In this document: positions 5,388 to 15,761 of the stretch, one piece after another
Position numbering within the stretch: the stretch's first letter is position 1
Layout of the letters: each line of letters opens with the position of its first letter
NCBI GenBank assembly: GCA_017416805.1
Contig: JAFQBB010000029.1
Location: 1 to 56,905, forward strand
Direction of reading: 5' to 3'
Length of the DNA stretch: 56,905 nt
Source of the DNA: Bacteroidaceae bacterium
GTDB taxonomy: Bacteria > Bacteroidota > Bacteroidia > Bacteroidales > Bacteroidaceae
Made by a program: the position numbers and the translations under genes
Notes under the pieces: generated by a model
Database searches by the model: none
The model's input: the letters and a program-made list of their open reading frames with translations, nothing else
Told to the model about the DNA's origin: nothing

Positions 5388-6718
5388 AAAAACTGAATAT
5401 CATATTTATGTTACTCATAGTGCCAATATGTACTATGGCACAAGAGAGATTGACTCTTGACGAGTGTCTTGAATTGGCAAAGAGTCATAACAAACGAATT
5501 GAAGCTTCTAATTTTCAGATAGAATCGGCTAAATATGAAAAAAGAGCCACTTTATCAAACTACTTTCCGACGGTGGCATTGACCGGCGGTAGCCTCTATT
5601 CCACAGCCGAGGGTACATTAGGTATGGAAGGCGGTTTGTTGCCTGTCGTGGGAATGGATGGATTGCCTACGGGAGCAGGTGCTTTTTTCCCAGGAATCGA
5701 TATTAATTATCGTGTTGATTGGGTTTATAGTGCAGGGGTACAATTCAAACAACCTATCTTTATGGGAGGAAAGATTATAGCGGGTCATAAGATGGGTAAG
5801 TTAGGCGAGTCAATAGCTCTTCAAAGCCACAGACTGACGGAGTCTGAGGTAATTTTCGAGACAGCACAAGCCTATGCAAATGTAGTGCGAGCATCAGAGA
5901 TGTGTAAGGTTGCTACGGCCTATAATGGATTGCTTGTTGAGTTGAAACGTACAGTTGATAAGGCTTTTGAGCGAGGAATTAAATCGCATAATGATGTGTT
6001 AAAAGTAGAGGTCAAGTTAAACGAGAGTGAACTTAATCTACGACGAGCGGAGAATGCATTACGTCTTGCAACGATGAATTTATGTCATTACATTGGATAT
6101 ACATTAACTACACAAATAGAGGTTGACAATAACATATTTATCCCACACTACAACAATGCGAATGCGGATATATCTCTACGCCCTGAAGTGCAACTTCTTT
6201 CGCAAAAGAGCGAGTTTATGCGTCAAAAGGTAAATATGGCAAAGGGAGAAATATTGCCAGAGATAGGGCTTATTGGGCAGTATGGCTATATAAATGGGGC
6301 GCAACTTAATGGCAGTAAATTGTTTAATGATTGGAACTTTGCCGTGGGGGTACAACTCTCTATTCCGATATTCAACCTTAGCTCTCACGCAAAATATCGT
6401 TCAGCACAGATGCAATATAGACAATCACAAGCCGAAGAGAGTGAAAAACTTGAATTAATGACACTTGAGGTAACACAAGCCATAAACAATTTAGATGAGG
6501 CAGCCTATGAATTACACCTTGCAGAATCAGGTCGACAGTCAGCAACCGAAAATCTCCGTGTTAGCAGTAGCCAATATACTGTAGGGAAAGAGAGTTTAAC
6601 CGATTATCTGGAAGCTCAAACCCTATGGTTACAATCCGAGCAAGTATTTGTTGATGCAAAAGTTAATCAATATCTACGCTTCCTAGATTATAAGAAAAAA
6701 AGTGGCTTGTTGAATTAA
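5384..6718 (+). CDS. TolC family outer membrane efflux channel
   Basis: 444-residue outer-membrane factor with signal peptide MKKLNIIFMLLIVPICTMAQ, followed by ERLTLDECLELAKSHN, the typical first helix of the TolC fold. Two repeated halves of long alpha-helical segments and short beta strands follow, ending in the usual YLRFLDYKKKSGLLN-type tail. It forms the exit duct for the adaptor and pump encoded just upstream. The start overlaps the pump stop by 4 bp. A hairpin 25 bp downstream may end the transcript. Confidence 0.9.
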   Translation: MKKLNIIFMLLIVPICTMAQERLTLDECLELAKSHNKRIEASNFQIESAKYEKRATLSNYFPTVALTGGSLYSTAEGTLGMEGGLLPVVGMDGLPTGAGAFFPGIDINYRVDWVYSAGVQFKQPIFMGGKIIAGHKMGKLGESIALQSHRLTESEVIFETAQAYANVVRASEMCKVATAYNGLLVELKRTVDKAFERGIKSHNDVLKVEVKLNESELNLRRAENALRLATMNLCHYIGYTLTTQIEVDNNIFIPHYNNANADISLRPEVQLLSQKSEFMRQKVNMAKGEILPEIGLIGQYGYINGAQLNGSKLFNDWNFAVGVQLSIPIFNLSSHAKYRSAQMQYRQSQAEESEKLELMTLEVTQAINNLDEAAYELHLAESGRQSATENLRVSSSQYTVGKESLTDYLEAQTLWLQSEQVFVDAKVNQYLRFLDYKKKSGLLN

Positions 6719-6734
6719 ATACTCTTCTAACGTT

Positions 6735-6782
6735 AAAAGCGACCCGCCAGCAGTTCTTATGGGATGCTGACGGGTTCTGTTA
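6735..6782. repeat. Hairpin repeat, copy A (possible terminator)
   Basis: CCCGCCAGCA (6743-6752) pairs with TGCTGACGGG (6765-6774), leaving one mismatch and a 12-nt loop. The hairpin lies 25 bp after the channel gene and can act as its terminator, although the following T-run is weak. A near-identical block (copy B) is at 8789-8838 in the same orientation, so the two copies bracket the DUF3307/SatD cassette as direct repeats. Confidence 0.6.
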
Positions 6783-6819
6783 TTTATGAGTTTTCTTGTC
6801 GCTTCTGCTATTTAGAACG

Positions 6820-6906
6820 ACTTGGTTGCTTTTCACTCGGTACTTGGTTACTTTTTCTATTCGACTTAGTTACTTGGTTACCATTTTGCCTTGCACTTGG
6901 TTACTT
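6820..6906. repeat. Short degenerate ACTTGGTTAC repeats
   Basis: The ten-base word ACTTGGTTAC or a close variant occurs about four times here (for example near 6819, 6841, 6871 and 6896), separated by T-rich spacers. No gene covers it. It lies directly beyond the stop codon of the degraded winged-helix gene on the minus strand. Confidence 0.4.
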
Positions 6907-7116
6907 TTACATATTCTTTATACTCCAAATAATATTTTTTCTTGTTCCTCCTTTTTCGAGTACCCCAAGTGCAATCAGTTCATTTATTTCTCGCTGCAAG
7001 GTTCGTAGGGGAATATTGGTTAGAACTTGAAGTTTAAGGACAGACAGTGTATTGTCAATTTGAATTGCATGTAATATGCGTTGCTTGTTCGCGCCATTTA
7101 CTGGCAGACTCGCTAT
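6907..7116 (-). pseudogene. Remnant of a winged-helix regulator or Fic-type C-terminus
   Basis: On the minus strand a frame open from 7116 to a TAA at 6907-6909 encodes about 69 residues with a clear winged-helix pattern: NKQRILHAIQ, then LRTLQREINELIALGVLE, then GGTRKNIIWSI. This matches the C-terminal DNA-binding tail seen on Fic proteins and small MarR-like regulators of Bacteroidota. There is no start codon in the frame, and two stops lie just upstream (7117-7125), so only the 3' part of an older gene seems to survive. The exact parent family is uncertain. Confidence 0.45.
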
Positions 7117-7162
7117 TTACCGTCAAAGTGGTTCATTCTTCCAATTTGTCGGTATACCGATT

Positions 7163-7966
7163 TTATAATTGCATTTTTAGGACAAGTATACCTAAGCACA
7201 GAGCAATTGCCAATGAAAGCAAAGTTCCAGTCAGTACATATTCTGACTTTTCATCACCTTTAGATGCTTCGCTAAAACGAAGAATAGACTTTGCCGCAAT
7301 TAAAAAACCGATGGCCTCATATTGAGACATAATAACAAATACAAGTATAAGTCCACGCTCCAACCAGCCAATCAATTCTCCAGAATGGAAATTTCCGTGT
7401 TCATCATTTTTTGTTGGGTTTACATTGACTTTGCAAGTTTCAAGAATAAGCAATATCAAGATATTTGCAGGCTTTAATGCCAACAATAAACCTACCATAG
7501 TCTTTAATCTTAGAGGATGATTTATGATTAATTCTTGCAAGCATTCAGGAAGGCTCCAATCGTTATTCCAATGGCGGTACGCTGAAAACCAAATGTAAGC
7601 ACCCACGACTATTATAGCAATATGCACAATTTGGTCAGCGAGAAATATCCACAAATCATTTCGTTTGTTTTCCCCCGGAATAACTTCATTTTGGGCATTT
7701 GTAGTAAGAACTCCCATTTTTGATTGCACATAAGACTTTAACCAATCTGTCAAAAAGTGTATTACCATTATACTAAGGGCAAGCCACCATCCACGAAAAT
7801 CCCATATGGCTATCCACGATAAAACTCCTATAATCAAAGAATGTAGCCACAAACTTTTACCTTGAACAGAATAAAGGAATTTGTTTTCGCATGACTTCTT
7901 GGTCTGTAAGTAGAAATCTCCCAAGATATGGGCAATGATCAGATTGAAGATTAAATAGTGTATCAT
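7163..7966 (-). CDS. DUF3307 family membrane protein
   Basis: 267-residue polytopic membrane protein. The N-terminus LIIAHILGDFYLQTKK carries the histidine/aspartate pair typical of DUF3307, and a second conserved block is MVIHFLTDWLKSY near residues 72-84. About six or seven hydrophobic helices can be seen, the last near the C-terminus (SLAIALCLGILVL). Its start overlaps the stop of the SatD-like gene by 4 bp, so the two form one transcription and translation unit. DUF3307 proteins are known beside SatD-family genes in other bacteria, but their activity is not established. The metal-ligand-like His and Asp inside membrane helices suggest an enzyme or transporter; that is inference only. Confidence 0.75.
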   Translation of the reverse strand: MIHYLIFNLIIAHILGDFYLQTKKSCENKFLYSVQGKSLWLHSLIIGVLSWIAIWDFRGWWLALSIMVIHFLTDWLKSYVQSKMGVLTTNAQNEVIPGENKRNDLWIFLADQIVHIAIIVVGAYIWFSAYRHWNNDWSLPECLQELIINHPLRLKTMVGLLLALKPANILILLILETCKVNVNPTKNDEHGNFHSGELIGWLERGLILVFVIMSQYEAIGFLIAAKSILRFSEASKGDEKSEYVLTGTLLSLAIALCLGILVLKMQL

Positions 7967-8616
7967 AGTTGTTTTGCTATTTTTCGGTAATAAATAATTG
8001 CTTGTTCTATTGCACTCCAGCCAATATCCTTCAATGTTTGATTGACTCCAGAAACGGATATCCCCATTTTCTCAGCAGTCTTACTGGTATCAGAGGCAAG
8101 TATTCTTTCACATAGGGTTTCGCATTTACGTGCCGTTGCGTTATTCAATAGTTGATTAACCAAGGTTAGTATCACCTGCAATGCTTGTTCATATTCTTCA
8201 TTCTCCATTGAGATTGCAAATGAATACTTGGCTCTTCCTTTCAGTTTGCTCAATGTACGTCCTGAACGATAAATGGCATCACCATCCATCATATCTAAAT
8301 TACGGTCAATGGTCTTCATTTCACCAATGCCGATAGCTATTCGAAGCCCATATCTGTTAAATCTTTTCGAATCATTAACATCACTTGGTTCAAATGATTT
8401 GACCAGAGTCTTTAATATGAGTGCTGCTTCAAAAGCGTCCTCAGGACAATCCATAACACACTCTATAGAGTCACCTTTAACAATACGCCCCCAAAATCCT
8501 TGGTAACGTAACTCTAAAGTGCTCAGACATTTTTTCAGCCTCTCATTGAGCTCAATCATAGCATCTTTTGAGAGAGAAGTTGATGATACTACATCGGCTG
8601 ATATTGTTGCATACAT
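7963..8616 (-). CDS. SatD-like protein: cyclase-like domain plus C-terminal HTH
   Basis: 217 residues. The N-terminal ~140 residues follow the order of a class III nucleotide-cyclase fold: ISADVVSST with Asp8 in the first strand, a GRIVKGDSIECVMDCPEDAFEA segment (residues 43-64), LRIAIGIGEM (91-100) and DGDAIYRSGRTLSKL (111-125). The same order of blocks is known in the SatD family. The C-terminus (about 175-200: SKTAEKMGISVSGVNQTLKD) is a helix-turn-helix. Whether it makes a nucleotide or only binds one cannot be told; the complete metal and base-recognition set of active cyclases is not evident. It is first in an operon with a DUF3307 membrane protein, and three identical-spacing palindromes lie between its promoter and start codon, so autoregulation through the HTH is likely. 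Confidence 0.7.
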   Translation of the reverse strand: MYATISADVVSSTSLSKDAMIELNERLKKCLSTLELRYQGFWGRIVKGDSIECVMDCPEDAFEAALILKTLVKSFEPSDVNDSKRFNRYGLRIAIGIGEMKTIDRNLDMMDGDAIYRSGRTLSKLKGRAKYSFAISMENEEYEQALQVILTLVNQLLNNATARKCETLCERILASDTSKTAEKMGISVSGVNQTLKDIGWSAIEQAIIYYRKIAKQL

Positions 8617-8629
8617 ACTCTTTTCTATT

Positions 8630-8714
8630 TTACAAGTGATATTACTTGTTTTCTATTATTACAAGTCTATTAGCTTGTTTCTGTCAATTACAAGCTTTTT
8701 CGCTTGCAAATATA
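8630..8714 (-). promoter_or_regulatory. Three 29-bp-spaced operators and promoter of the SatD-like operon
   Basis: Three copies of TTACAAG-N8-CTTG begin at 8630, 8659 and 8688, exactly 29 bp apart. In each the inner CAAG-N8-CTTG is a perfect palindrome (8633-8648, 8662-8677, 8691-8706). A minus-strand -7 box TATATTTG is read from 8714 to 8707, immediately upstream of the third palindrome, so all three lie on the early transcribed leader ahead of the ATG at 8616. This is the layout of a repressor binding cooperatively. The HTH of the SatD-like protein is the obvious candidate ligand. Confidence 0.7.
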
Positions 8715-8788
8715 ACAAGAAATCTTTATTTGATGGAATAAATGACCAATAATTGTGTTATTATACTGCGTAAAGTCGGCTCTTAATA

Positions 8789-8838
8789 ATAAAAGTGACC
8801 CGCCAGCAGACACATAGGATGCTGACGGGTTTCGTTAA
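8789..8838. repeat. Hairpin repeat, copy B
   Basis: CCCGCCAGCA (8799-8808) pairs with TGCTGACGGG (8820-8829). Stem arms and much of the flanking AAAAG-GACC and GTTA sequence match copy A at 6735-6782, in direct orientation about 2.05 kb away. It could be a shared terminator sequence or the footprint of a cassette insertion. Confidence 0.6.
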
Positions 8839-8904
8839 TATTGATTTTTGAGTTCCTAGAATCGGCTCCTTTATCGGATTACCAAAATCTTATTCGGTTT
8901 ATTT

Positions 8905-8941
8905 GTTGCAAAGGTCAACAAAACACGCTTACCTTTGCAAC
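8905..8941. repeat. Perfect 11-bp inverted repeat downstream of mob
   Basis: GTTGCAAAGGT (8905-8915) and ACCTTTGCAAC (8931-8941) are exact inverted copies around a 15-nt loop, 36 bp beyond the stop of the leftward relaxase gene. It may terminate that gene, although no long T-run follows. The right arm also contains a TACCTTTG-like -7 box. Recombination or protein-binding roles are possible. Confidence 0.5.
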
Positions 8942-8976
8942 TCTTTCAATGAATTGTATCATCTAAGTGCACTTGA

Positions 8977-10443
8977 TTACAACTTCAATGAGTTTCCACG
9001 CTTCTGAGCCTGCTCATATCTACCGATAGCGACATCATCCACTTCGCGAACAGCCTTGCTGTACTCGCTATTGGATAGAGATTCTTTGTTGTCTGCCGTG
9101 AATACGAGGAAAGTTCCGATAGCTCTGTAGTCCTCCTTGTCTTTGCCAAAGGCTTCCATCACATTTTTAATGGTCTTTGCTTCCTCTCGGCTGTAGATGC
9201 TACGATAAGTATCCTTGGCAAAACTGATGATTATATCAATAGTATTCCTGAAGGTAGCGTTATTTCGTGCCAGTAGTTTTGTAAACATCCCCAGCATCTT
9301 GTTCCTCCATGATATACGTTCCTTCAAATTGCGAATCTCATCATCCTTTTTGAGTACAGCATTGCGTACGGCACCTTCCATTTGTTGTGCAACAATTTTC
9401 TTGTAGGCTTCAAGTTTGGCGGTTTCTGCCTGTGTCCGTTTACGCTCTTCGGCTATTGCTTCGTGAGCCTCTGCCAAGTCAAGTTTCAAGTCCTCAATAT
9501 CACCTTTAAGGGCTTTGGACTTTCCTGTAGCCCAATCCGCAACTGCACCGAGCAACTGGATTCCTTTCTCCTTATTCAGTTTGGAGCGTTTATCGCTGAT
9601 AGCCTTGTCAAGCATTTCACTCTGCTTCTCTTTTTGCAGAGCTTCATTACGTAGGGCTTGTGTTATACTCTCTGCTTCCTGAACCTCCTGCTCGGCTACT
9701 TTCACCTGATACTCCTTGTATCGCCTTACGGCATCCAAGTTACGGAGTTCAGATTTCTGCTTTTCAATGATGTAGTCATTGCGTTCCAAATGCTCTTTGC
9801 CTGTCTCGGCCTTGGATTGTCCTCGCTCCATTGATAGGATTTCGGAAGCCAATGTCTGCATTTCCATCATATCATCATCATTGAGCTTGCAACTTTGGCC
9901 CGTATCATGGTTCATCCAATCGAACACGATATGGGCGTGATAGTTGGGTTTGAACCAACGACCACCGATTTTGAAACTCTCCTTATCATCTGCATCAGGT
10001 TCTCCACTCAGCCAATGCCCTTCATCCTTGTGCATGAAAATCTGCATGGGCGTGATTCCCCAACGCTGTCGGCATTCATCGCCAAATTTGCGAAGATCAT
10101 ATAGAGTGGTATCTGCCTTGATAAGCAATACACCTTCACGGATGGGCGAGCATCCGGCTACTTTGACAATCTTTCCGTTCTTGCCTTTGCGTTCACGTTC
10201 CTTCTCCTGCATAGCACGTCCTGTCTTTTCCTTGACCATCCGTTTGATGTTGTCATAATGCGTCTGCAAACCGACATTGCAGAAGTGCGGATTTATCCAA
10301 TGCTCGTTATCGGCCGAGAGTTCAGGAACTATATAGATTTTGGAATCCCTGATGTTACGCATATATTCGGGAGTCCTGCGGTTATGTGCCTCGCTGGATG
10401 TGATGTTGCAAGGCTTGATATGTATACTACTTTTGGTTGCCAT
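8977..10443 (-). CDS. mob: MobV family relaxase (Mob/Pre)
   Basis: 488-residue mobilization relaxase of the MobV (Pre/MobM) family. Near the N-terminus SSEAHNRR supplies the His/Asn/Arg motif that in MobM holds the catalytic histidine. At residues 167-173 NYHAHIV gives the HxH metal-binding motif with the following FDW. The second half (about 220-370) is strongly charged and predicted coiled coil, as in related mobilization proteins. It nicks one strand at oriT and pilots it into a conjugative channel supplied by another element; no channel genes are in this window. The oriT-like region lies directly upstream (10,530-10,710). Confidence 0.92.
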   Translation of the reverse strand: MATKSSIHIKPCNITSSEAHNRRTPEYMRNIRDSKIYIVPELSADNEHWINPHFCNVGLQTHYDNIKRMVKEKTGRAMQEKERERKGKNGKIVKVAGCSPIREGVLLIKADTTLYDLRKFGDECRQRWGITPMQIFMHKDEGHWLSGEPDADDKESFKIGGRWFKPNYHAHIVFDWMNHDTGQSCKLNDDDMMEMQTLASEILSMERGQSKAETGKEHLERNDYIIEKQKSELRNLDAVRRYKEYQVKVAEQEVQEAESITQALRNEALQKEKQSEMLDKAISDKRSKLNKEKGIQLLGAVADWATGKSKALKGDIEDLKLDLAEAHEAIAEERKRTQAETAKLEAYKKIVAQQMEGAVRNAVLKKDDEIRNLKERISWRNKMLGMFTKLLARNNATFRNTIDIIISFAKDTYRSIYSREEAKTIKNVMEAFGKDKEDYRAIGTFLVFTADNKESLSNSEYSKAVREVDDVAIGRYEQAQKRGNSLKL

Positions 10444-14642: not shown

Positions 14643-15761
14643 CTATGCCTCCTTGCGTTTCAGGGTTATCTTGTCCACCACGTCACACATCTGCTGTGCT
14701 GCCATCTTGGAATAGATTTGTGTGGTGGTAATGTTCTTGTGTCCCAGATAGGCTTGTATGACAGCCATGTCCGTACCCATTTCCACGTGCAGGCTTCCGA
14801 ATGAATGCCGGGTGCAATGGAAGGTTATCTTCTTGGTTATGCCTGCCGCCGACAGCCAACGCTTCAGGGGGCCCTGCAGCATCTTGTCCTTGAAGCCCTC
14901 GAAGATAAGTCCTTCATGCCGTTCCCCGAGCAGTCCGTAGGCTTCATCACTGATGGGGTTGTGTACGATCTGCTTCGTCTTCTGCATACGGGTGGTCACA
15001 AACATCTTGCCGTTGGTGTACGGCTGTATCTGCTGCCAGGTAAGCTGCCTGATGTCGCTCTTCCGCAATCCCGTCAGGCAGGCGAAAAGGAAAGCTCTTT
15101 TCAGAACCTCTTCCTCGCATGGCGTTTCGGCAAGCCGTATCAGTTCCTCCTGGCTCAGATGCTCTCTCATGGTGGGAATACTCTCGATGCGGTCCAGAAA
15201 GCCGTTGGGATTCTCCTTTATCTTCCTGTCACGGTAGGCCGTGTGCAGGACGGCACGGAAAGCCGACCAGTAGCCCGCCGCAGAATTGATATGCAGCTTT
15301 TGGTTGGTATGTATGGTCTGGGGAGCGTTCAGCAGGTACTCCATGAACTTGCGGCACAAGTCCACGTCCACCTCTTCAAAGGTGCATTTGCCATTTACAA
15401 ACCGTTCAAAGTGTTTGTAGACGTGCTGCCACTTGATATTCCTTCTGTCTGCTAGTTCCTTGAAGTAGGCGAGGAAATCCCCTTTCATCCTGGCCTTGTC
15501 AAAGAAGCCGTTGTTCTCGTTGAAGATGGCTTCGTAACGCCTGTTGCGGAGTATCTCTGCCTTCTTCATCATGCGTGCGTTGAAGTCACGCTCCTGCTGG
15601 TTGGCAGGTTTAGCAAAAATGTAAATACCCAGAGCTTCACGTGTTATTACTTTCATGGTGGTGTTGTCACGGTAGCCGGGATAATAGTCCAGACACAGCG
15701 AATACTGTGTACCGTTCTTGATCTTGCGCTTGCGCAAGGTTACTGTCTTGCATTTACTCAT
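14643..15761 (-). CDS. int: Tyrosine recombinase / integrase
   Basis: 372 residues. The order is an N-terminal arm-binding domain, a SAM-like core-binding domain (about 105-200: YFKELADRRNIKWQHVYKHFERF) and a catalytic domain. The catalytic set is visible: Arg in LTGLRKSDIRQL, His-x-x-Arg in FHCTRHSFGSLH, His in YLGHKNITTTQIYSKM, and the nucleophile Tyr in the same block. The type is that of Bacteroidota integrative and mobilizable elements. It should integrate and excise the element whose right end appears to be near 17,185. Its promoter shares an operator with the xis-type gene. Confidence 0.93.
   Translation of the reverse strand: MSKCKTVTLRKRKIKNGTQYSLCLDYYPGYRDNTTMKVITREALGIYIFAKPANQQERDFNARMMKKAEILRNRRYEAIFNENNGFFDKARMKGDFLAYFKELADRRNIKWQHVYKHFERFVNGKCTFEEVDVDLCRKFMEYLLNAPQTIHTNQKLHINSAAGYWSAFRAVLHTAYRDRKIKENPNGFLDRIESIPTMREHLSQEELIRLAETPCEEEVLKRAFLFACLTGLRKSDIRQLTWQQIQPYTNGKMFVTTRMQKTKQIVHNPISDEAYGLLGERHEGLIFEGFKDKMLQGPLKRWLSAAGITKKITFHCTRHSFGSLHVEMGTDMAVIQAYLGHKNITTTQIYSKMAAQQMCDVVDKITLKRKEA

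Follow-up and report, generated by a model that had tools for sequence, protein, structure and literature searches.

What does a short bacterial operon do when its first gene joins a predicted cyclase-like domain to a predicted DNA-binding domain and its second encodes a membrane protein? The question is raised by satD and a satE-like gene on contig JAFQBB010000029.1 of a Bacteroidaceae bacterium (assembly GCA_017416805.1), of which a stretch of 56,905 nucleotides, hereafter the window, was analysed. Both reading frames are open on the minus strand. The satD gene (7963–8616) encodes a 217-amino-acid protein with a class III cyclase-like fold at residues 1 to about 137 and a C-terminal helical helix-turn-helix (HTH) at about 140–217, while the satE-like gene (7163–7966) encodes a 267-amino-acid polytopic membrane protein of the DUF3307 family, here called SatE, and its start overlaps the satD stop by 4 bp in an ATGA. 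The SatD and DUF3307 families are already known, both being rarely named and having no assigned molecular function in the literature searched, which also holds no account of the combined SatD-DUF3307 system or of the array described below. As the best explanation, which we hold with about even confidence, we propose that SatD is a cyclase-fold autoregulator acting on an operator array of fixed pitch and controlling a probable membrane enzyme.

The palindrome array upstream of satD

Just upstream of satD the window carries three 22-bp palindromes at a spacing of exactly 29 bp. Read on the minus strand, unit 1 (8630–8651) has the form ACAAG-N8-CTTGT, unit 2 (8659–8680) lies 29 bp upstream of it and unit 3 (8688–8709; GCAAG-N8-CTTGT) a further 29 bp upstream of unit 2, so that the span first assigned to the module (7163–8716) takes in the array too, which ends at 8709. 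A fourth unit proposed by joint scoring of symmetry and period was dropped as non-palindromic (2/11 positions), and a riboswitch or structured leader was rejected, there being no Rfam match in 6600–9000 at E up to 1.

The pitch recurs in relatives of the operon. When the last 220 bp before satD were compared with themselves at lags of 15–60, five loci with too short an upstream region being left out, 61 of the 75 loci had their best lag at 28 or 29, and another four had it at 58. A score of at least 30/48 at lag 28/29 was reached by 45 of these 75 regions versus 2 of 787 controls. The controls were taken from upstream of other genes at these loci, and 17 of them reach that score at any lag. 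Joint scoring of symmetry and period, with periods 28 and 29 only, placed 47 of 71 loci over 99% of 96 simple shuffles. With periods of 20–45 allowed and three or four copies required, 68 of 170 regions (up to three genomes possibly counted twice) were over 99% of 132 shuffles, and every one of the 68 has a period of 28 or 29. They comprise 30 of 75 regions in the discovery set, 18 of 28 and 14 of 20 in further Bacteroidota, 4 of 18 in Proteobacteria and 2 of 29 in Firmicutes. A consensus fold of single arrays was noisy and has been superseded by this scoring.

The geometry of a 22-bp palindrome is common to the sites, while their sequence varies by clade: ACAAG in the clade of the window, and ATAAG, TATAG, TGCAACC, GTAAC or ATTCC in others. 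Among 24 non-redundant loci, operator distance followed recognition-helix distance when cyclase-domain distance was given (partial r 0.37, permutation p 0.0015), the reverse partial correlation being weaker (0.19). Besides, a distant SatD from Marivirga whose recognition helix contains VNQ has a TATAAG site, the same as Bacteroidales with VNQ at this place. Such covariation of operator and recognition helix would be expected if SatD binds its own promoter, and it is from this covariation that we infer the self-regulation already suggested in a preliminary description of the operon. The candidate operators, which can be read to the single base at dozens of loci and vary from clade to clade, should allow one to predict which SatD binds which DNA, and the array makes two families of "function unknown" directly testable. 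If the palindromes keep a fixed pitch of 28/29 bp all the way from Bacteroidota to Gammaproteobacteria, a cyclase-fold protein would be expected to form a conserved higher-order complex on DNA. Three loci from Muribaculaceae/Porphyromonadaceae (L101, L103 and L116) have near-perfect ATGCAACC...GGTTGCAT palindromes in their arrays, good material for a binding test.

The position of the promoter bears on the sign of control. Bacteroides-type -7 boxes follow the consensus TAnnTTTG, and a candidate box, TATATTTG (8707–8714, minus strand), stands immediately upstream of the palindrome array in the window. Of the 47 loci with an array, the nine of the window clade have a box directly upstream of it, which places the array in the 5' leader, where a repressor would sit. 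Another 22 loci of Bacteroidales have their nearest -7-like box 27–38 bp ahead of the start codon: in 20 of them it comes downstream of the array, and in two the called array end runs over it. In L101, L103 and L116 a -7-like box is found at 26 bp before the start codon; the remaining 13 of the 47 have no box or a box elsewhere. For the window locus, repression is our best guess from the sequence, and the sign of control may differ between clades.

Predicted fold of SatD and conservation in SatE

The window SatD has no match to the Pfam SatD profile (PF16264, cut-off 29 bits) at E up to 1, no match to PHROGs or PADLOC and none to NCBIfam that exceeds its cut-off. Its own genome likewise gave no PF16264 match in a scan in which the control genomes were silent too. 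Ten relatives were scanned with PF16264, of which six were over the cut-off of 29, two below it and two without a match. Five of the six (L112, L114, L117, L121 and L123, of Lachnospiraceae, clostridial or spirochaete origin) score 152–160 bits and also match the window-family profile A1, and the sixth, from Anditalea (L089), scores 38.3 bits; L120 (22.5 bits) and L113 (13.7 bits) fall below, and L066 and L105 give no match. Since intermediates match both the window family and PF16264, we class the window protein by sequence as a divergent SatD, a membership established via these intermediates only. The earlier label "SatD-like" thus holds by way of relatives that pass the profile, and fails for the window protein when this is taken by itself.

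An AlphaFold2 model of SatD, built with 73 family sequences, has a mean pLDDT of 93.6. Foldseek returned 694 matches for it in the PDB at E up to 10, just one of them below 0.001, and among the 50 best rows 48 are nucleotidyl cyclases, one is a GGDEF domain and one is unrelated, as one would expect from the cyclase-like fold that had been proposed from the sequence. The best match, 4wpa, has E 6e-4, probability 1.00 and a TM score of 0.44 by query and 0.57 by target, and the pyrimidine cyclases 8jsz and 7r65 are among the 50 best with E 0.015. At the level of sequence, a SatD profile matches the cyclase Ma1120 over residues 3–96 (E 1e-4), with D8 and D49 on its two Asp motifs, and the C-terminal part matches the GerE HTH (E 0.002). 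The HTH is present in the AlphaFold2 model too, which agrees with the preliminary description, and the motifs listed there (D8, KGDSIE, LRIAIGIGEM and DGDAIYRSGR) are all present in the window SatD. A search of PDB sequences with SatD alone led to scavenger receptors; with a best E of 0.0019 and no stretch that passed singly, these were taken as chance.

Residue conservation was read from alignment A5, which holds 73 of the 80 rows available after near-copies and truncated rows were dropped. The metal-binding Asp residues are kept throughout (D8 in 72/73 with one gap, D49 in 73/73), and G112 is invariant (73/73). Class III cyclases use an Asn and an Arg in the transition state and a Lys to specify the base. 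In SatD, with positions assigned by eye, the Lys position is I45 (Ile or Leu in 57/73), and the Asn position is Y116, which is Tyr in 48/73 and has Asn outside its four commonest residues. The N-terminal domain of SatD is therefore modelled as a cyclase fold with a metal site and without the canonical catalytic set. It resembles class III adenylyl and guanylyl cyclases (Ma1120, Rv1900c) in its fold and in both metal-binding Asp; unlike them, SatD lacks, by the same reading by eye, the base-specifying Lys and the transition-state Asn, is fused to an HTH and has operator-like palindromes before its own operon. The mycobacterial cyclase-LuxR fusions, e.g. Rv0386, are large multidomain proteins which, like SatD, carry a cyclase domain and a LuxR-type HTH in one chain; SatD differs from them in having 217 amino acids, nothing between the two domains and a dedicated membrane partner.

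The second gene was correctly described as a DUF3307 membrane gene overlapping the first: SatE matches PF11750 with 68.4 bits over residues 6–128 (cut-off 23), its model (mean pLDDT 90.3) has six hydropathy segments, and SatE lengths are mostly 230–280 amino acids. No match to PDB sequences was found for SatE. In alignment A6, which holds 73 of 81 rows, 21 residues are identical in all 73; they include H13, D17, Q21, H70, D74, K77, D111, Q112 and H115, and, in the C-terminal half, G196, E203, R204, K226, R230, E242, Y243 and S251. The DUF3307 gene of L009 has a frame change and was left out of alignment A2. Conservation of this kind suggests an intramembrane active or metal site. The N-terminal 125 or so residues of SatE are like other DUF3307 proteins (PF11750; phage phrog_2470), and their pattern of H-x3-D-x3-Q, H-x3-D and DQ-x2-H recurs on a viral contig, in a protein of 108 amino acids. 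BFVD has three phage proteins under the name DUF3307, with 119–131 residues (best E 0.07), and SatE differs from these viral proteins of 108–131 residues by an extra C-terminal half with invariant residues of its own. A phage origin of the operon was rejected, as the phage collection has no record that matches the window SatD (E limit 1e-5) or DUF3307 (1e-3); among viral contigs, a single-protein query returned no SatD, and two weak N-terminal DUF3307 matches were obtained.

Put together, SatD would be a one-component autoregulator of the satD-satE operon. Since both Asp residues are kept while the base-specifying Lys and the transition-state Asn are not, its N-terminal domain would most likely bind a metal-nucleotide, or turn it over slowly, as a signal. 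The HTH would bind each of the three palindromes spaced at 29 bp, one dimer per site, just downstream of the likely promoter, and array-bound SatD would hold the operon down until the ligand state changes, whereupon SatE would be made. Because an invariant set of His, Asp, Gln and Lys is spread over several helices, SatE would most likely work within the membrane as a metal-dependent enzyme and, under stress, act on a substrate in the envelope. A more far-reaching version is a cross-phylum signalling cassette in which several SatD dimers occupy the array at a pitch of 28/29 bp, a nucleotide is read via the metal site, the membrane enzyme has a new fold, and the whole has moved among gut Bacteroidales as a 1.5–1.6-kb unit together with its operators; this we regard as plausible and put forward tentatively.

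Several observations weigh against the proposal of an autoregulator on an array that controls a membrane enzyme. With respect to the array, 102 of the 170 regions are under the shuffle threshold, and the array does not define all SatD because just 2 of the 29 loci from Firmicutes pass; in the covariation test, cyclase-domain distance is the only correction for shared ancestry; and the box downstream of the array in 20 of the 22 Bacteroidales loci fits activation as well as repression. There is also no sign of further targets that would make up a wider regulon in the own genome, where exact ACAAG-N8-CTTGT sites occur at 5 places (2 at the operon, 3 elsewhere) and a reversed control pattern at 11, more than the exact palindrome, arrays not having been scanned genome-wide. 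With respect to SatD, the Foldseek likeness to cyclases is moderate (top E 6e-4), hhalign of SatD against a single Pycsar cyclase sequence returned no match, the Arg at R120 is kept in only 53 of 73 rows, and the positions of Lys, Asn and Arg, mapped by eye, lie outside the Ma1120 profile match where they go beyond residue 96. The SatE model found no fold match in the PDB below E 0.2, so the argument for an enzyme is one from conservation.

Pairing, transfer and rival explanations

A collection scanned with the DUF3307 alignment yielded 136 relatives, of which the best 80 loci were kept. In 79 of these 80, satD lies directly beside the DUF3307 gene on the same strand, the sole exception (L053) being a truncated DUF3307 with no SatD. 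The adjacency is not due to chance, since the loci were drawn by a scan for DUF3307 only. With start codons chosen by a script, 62 of the 79 pairs overlap by 1–16 bp, 31 of them by exactly 4; the overlap is deeper in 3, and in 14 the genes are separated by a gap of up to 263 bp. Samples drawn with SatD agree: a DUF3307 gene on the same strand within 900 bp was found in 30/30 Bacteroidota, 19/19 Proteobacteria, 20/20 complete genomes and 28/29 Firmicutes loci (22 downstream, 6 upstream), and a stricter first test with DUF3307 downstream gave 29, 16, 19 and 22, respectively. Each of the three phylum samples consists of the loci that scored best in its search, the complete genomes were chosen among genomes with a match, three genomes occur in both Bacteroidota sets, and the 29 Firmicutes loci come out of 63 genomes with a match. 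The pair is also present in all five plasmid records read. Pairwise distances of SatD and DUF3307 correlate at 0.94 over 71 loci. Six of the 29 Firmicutes loci (L182–L210) show the reversed order, with DUF3307 before SatD.

By the titles of the submitters, the pair occurs in seven phyla (Bacteroidota, Bacillota, Pseudomonadota, Thermodesulfobacteriota, Ignavibacteriota, Myxococcota and Spirochaetota), and one Fusobacterium record carries it as well. Both families are widespread. At E up to 0.001, SatD queries matched 9 of 61 near relatives, 115 of 395 genomes in Bacteroidota and 63 of 348 in Firmicutes, some of the matches in these two phyla covering the HTH only; in Proteobacteria the count was 59 of 349, with many HTH-only matches and 19 near full length. 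The window system is thus like the SatD family of PF16264, known from the sat operon of Streptococcus mutans, in its DUF3307 partner, which the Firmicutes loci examined share in 28 of 29 cases; it is unlike that family in that the window protein goes unrecognised by the profile, and the array at 28/29 bp, found in many Bacteroidota and some Proteobacteria members, is lacking in most Firmicutes loci examined.

Sequence comparison indicates transfer of the operon as a unit between some relatives. Eight pairs of relatives, hand-picked from the tree and mostly differing in genus or family name, share a single blastn stretch of 1.47–1.63 kb, which in 8/8 pairs is made up of the array and both genes at 86–93% identity, the flanks compared being of unequal length and L066 starting right at the shared stretch. 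The window copy is 88–90% identical to L045, L046, L047 and L057 over 1.64–1.73 kb, in different surroundings. The pair was also found on a conjugative Vibrio plasmid and on plasmids of Segatella, Salinivibrio and Sphingomonas. Among gut bacteria, the cassette appears to pass between species as one unit. Elsewhere the picture is different: the 20 complete genomes include four loci from a single genus that have 9–15 of about 18 genes around the pair in common, some pairs of related genera share 12, 7, 6–8 or 6, and other pairs mostly share the two module genes or fewer, a few up to 5. The locus is settled in several lineages and not always mobile. The idea that the operon is cargo of a mobile element between two hairpin repeats fits the hairpins and the accessory status in Bacteroidales, and does not extend to these settled loci.

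Both the gene order and the transfer could be read as signs of an addiction module resembling toxin-antitoxin systems, in which SatE is harmful, SatD is its dedicated repressor and loss of SatD is lethal, so that the cassette is retained. As in toxin-antitoxin modules, the genes are adjacent, mostly overlapping and placed behind operator-like palindromes through which they would be regulated, with the likely DNA-binding autoregulator first and the membrane protein second, and the 1.5–1.6-kb unit is common to otherwise unrelated DNA in all eight hand-picked pairs. Moreover, PMC11323703 reports that satD of Streptococcus pyogenes was essential in the strains that were tested although only 178 of 249 genomes have it, and singles it out as the one accessory gene that is essential. 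A gene that represses something harmful would be expected to behave in this way; a model in which SatD represses SatE would explain this essentiality. However, SatE proteins of mostly 230–280 amino acids with 21 invariant residues, many of them polar, are unlike a small pore toxin, the pair has no PADLOC match, and its loci are settled in several lineages. We consider addiction unlikely, and prefer a SatD autoregulator that controls a membrane enzyme.

A somewhat less probable alternative is an ordinary operon for acid or envelope stress tolerance, with SatD a plain regulator and its cyclase fold a structural relic. The membership of the window protein in the SatD family, reached through intermediates, speaks for it, as do the settled loci and the association of the S. 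mutans sat genes with acid tolerance, reported in PMC11323703 as well. A relic would have no need of D8 and D49, which are almost invariant in the 73 rows, and the title of the S. mutans paper cited there credits Ffh, not SatD, with acid tolerance.

The preliminary description had also compared the operon, in outline, with cyclase and effector systems of phage defence. In such a scheme the SatD cyclase would make a nucleotide signal on infection and SatE would act as its effector in the membrane, after the manner of Pycsar or CBASS. Membrane proteins are found among the effectors of Pycsar, and SatD is like Pycsar in combining a cyclase fold, with both metal Asp, and a partner, the two pyrimidine cyclases named above being among its best fold matches; unlike Pycsar, SatD comes with an HTH and an operator array of its own, lacks a recognised defence signature and has no sequence relation that hhalign could detect to the one Pycsar cyclase compared. 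PADLOC gave no match for SatD and none for SatE. A PADLOC scan of 128 neighbours in 34 loci (five long proteins left out of 133 called) returned 193 families, none with more than 5 members among the 25 listed; having no control set, it was unreadable, and therefore the 20 complete genomes were used for a case/control comparison. At 1e-10, their 120 neighbours matched 102 families versus 13 for 120 controls, a case count inflated by restriction subunits that match many models and by related species that repeat, while the controls had one member per family. Among the 25 case families listed of these 102, most are type I restriction subunits, each with one or two members, and the neighbours include at least one such restriction system; others are RTasRmuC, which is probably plain RmuC, a type II methyltransferase model, PDC-M60B, mad2 and mad5. 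On a plasmid of Sphingomonas insulae (L137, 66156–78650) the pair adjoins a Pycsar system and has ImmA/IrrE and TIR genes on its other side, the TIR gene at a distance of a few genes; this is a possible defence island. With this one island as an anecdote in its favour next to the membrane partner and the mobile setting, and with no PADLOC match, no nucleotide-binding domain found in SatE, the transition-state Asn not kept in SatD and neighbour counts that, being made up mostly of restriction subunits, point neither way, a role in phage defence is possible, not supported and, in our judgement, improbable.

Flanking features of the window

The neighbours of the operon in the window include a relaxase-like gene, primase-like and AAA-like open reading frames, an excisionase-like protein and an integrase-like open reading frame, the primase-like and integrase-like labels being given by eye. 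The mobilisation protein gene (8977–10443, minus strand) matches a MobA/VirD2-type relaxase with 19.4 bits, below the cut-off of 24.6, and the integrase-like frame of the same element lies at 14643–15761 on the minus strand. It is from these neighbouring genes that the operon is placed, by sequence, inside a putative mobile element. A piece of the same mobilisation gene stands beside the SatD-DUF3307 pair in L047.

Between satE and the left hairpin, at 6940–7100 on the minus strand, a remnant resembling the C terminus of a winged HTH (NTLSVLKLQVLTNIPLRTLQREINELIALGVLEK) was read by eye; it has stops in frame, and no intact gene was seen. The left hairpin repeat (6734–6794) is terminator-like and follows an RND/OEP operon, and the right copy (8790–8849) is 80% identical to it over 61 bp (49/61 positions). 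The exact stem pattern has three matches in the genome, all in a single orientation (6741–6775, 8797–8830 and contig 25:2013–2047), the copy on contig 25 being 95% identical to the left hairpin over 59 bp. The repeat may be a terminator, an attachment site or a small repeat.

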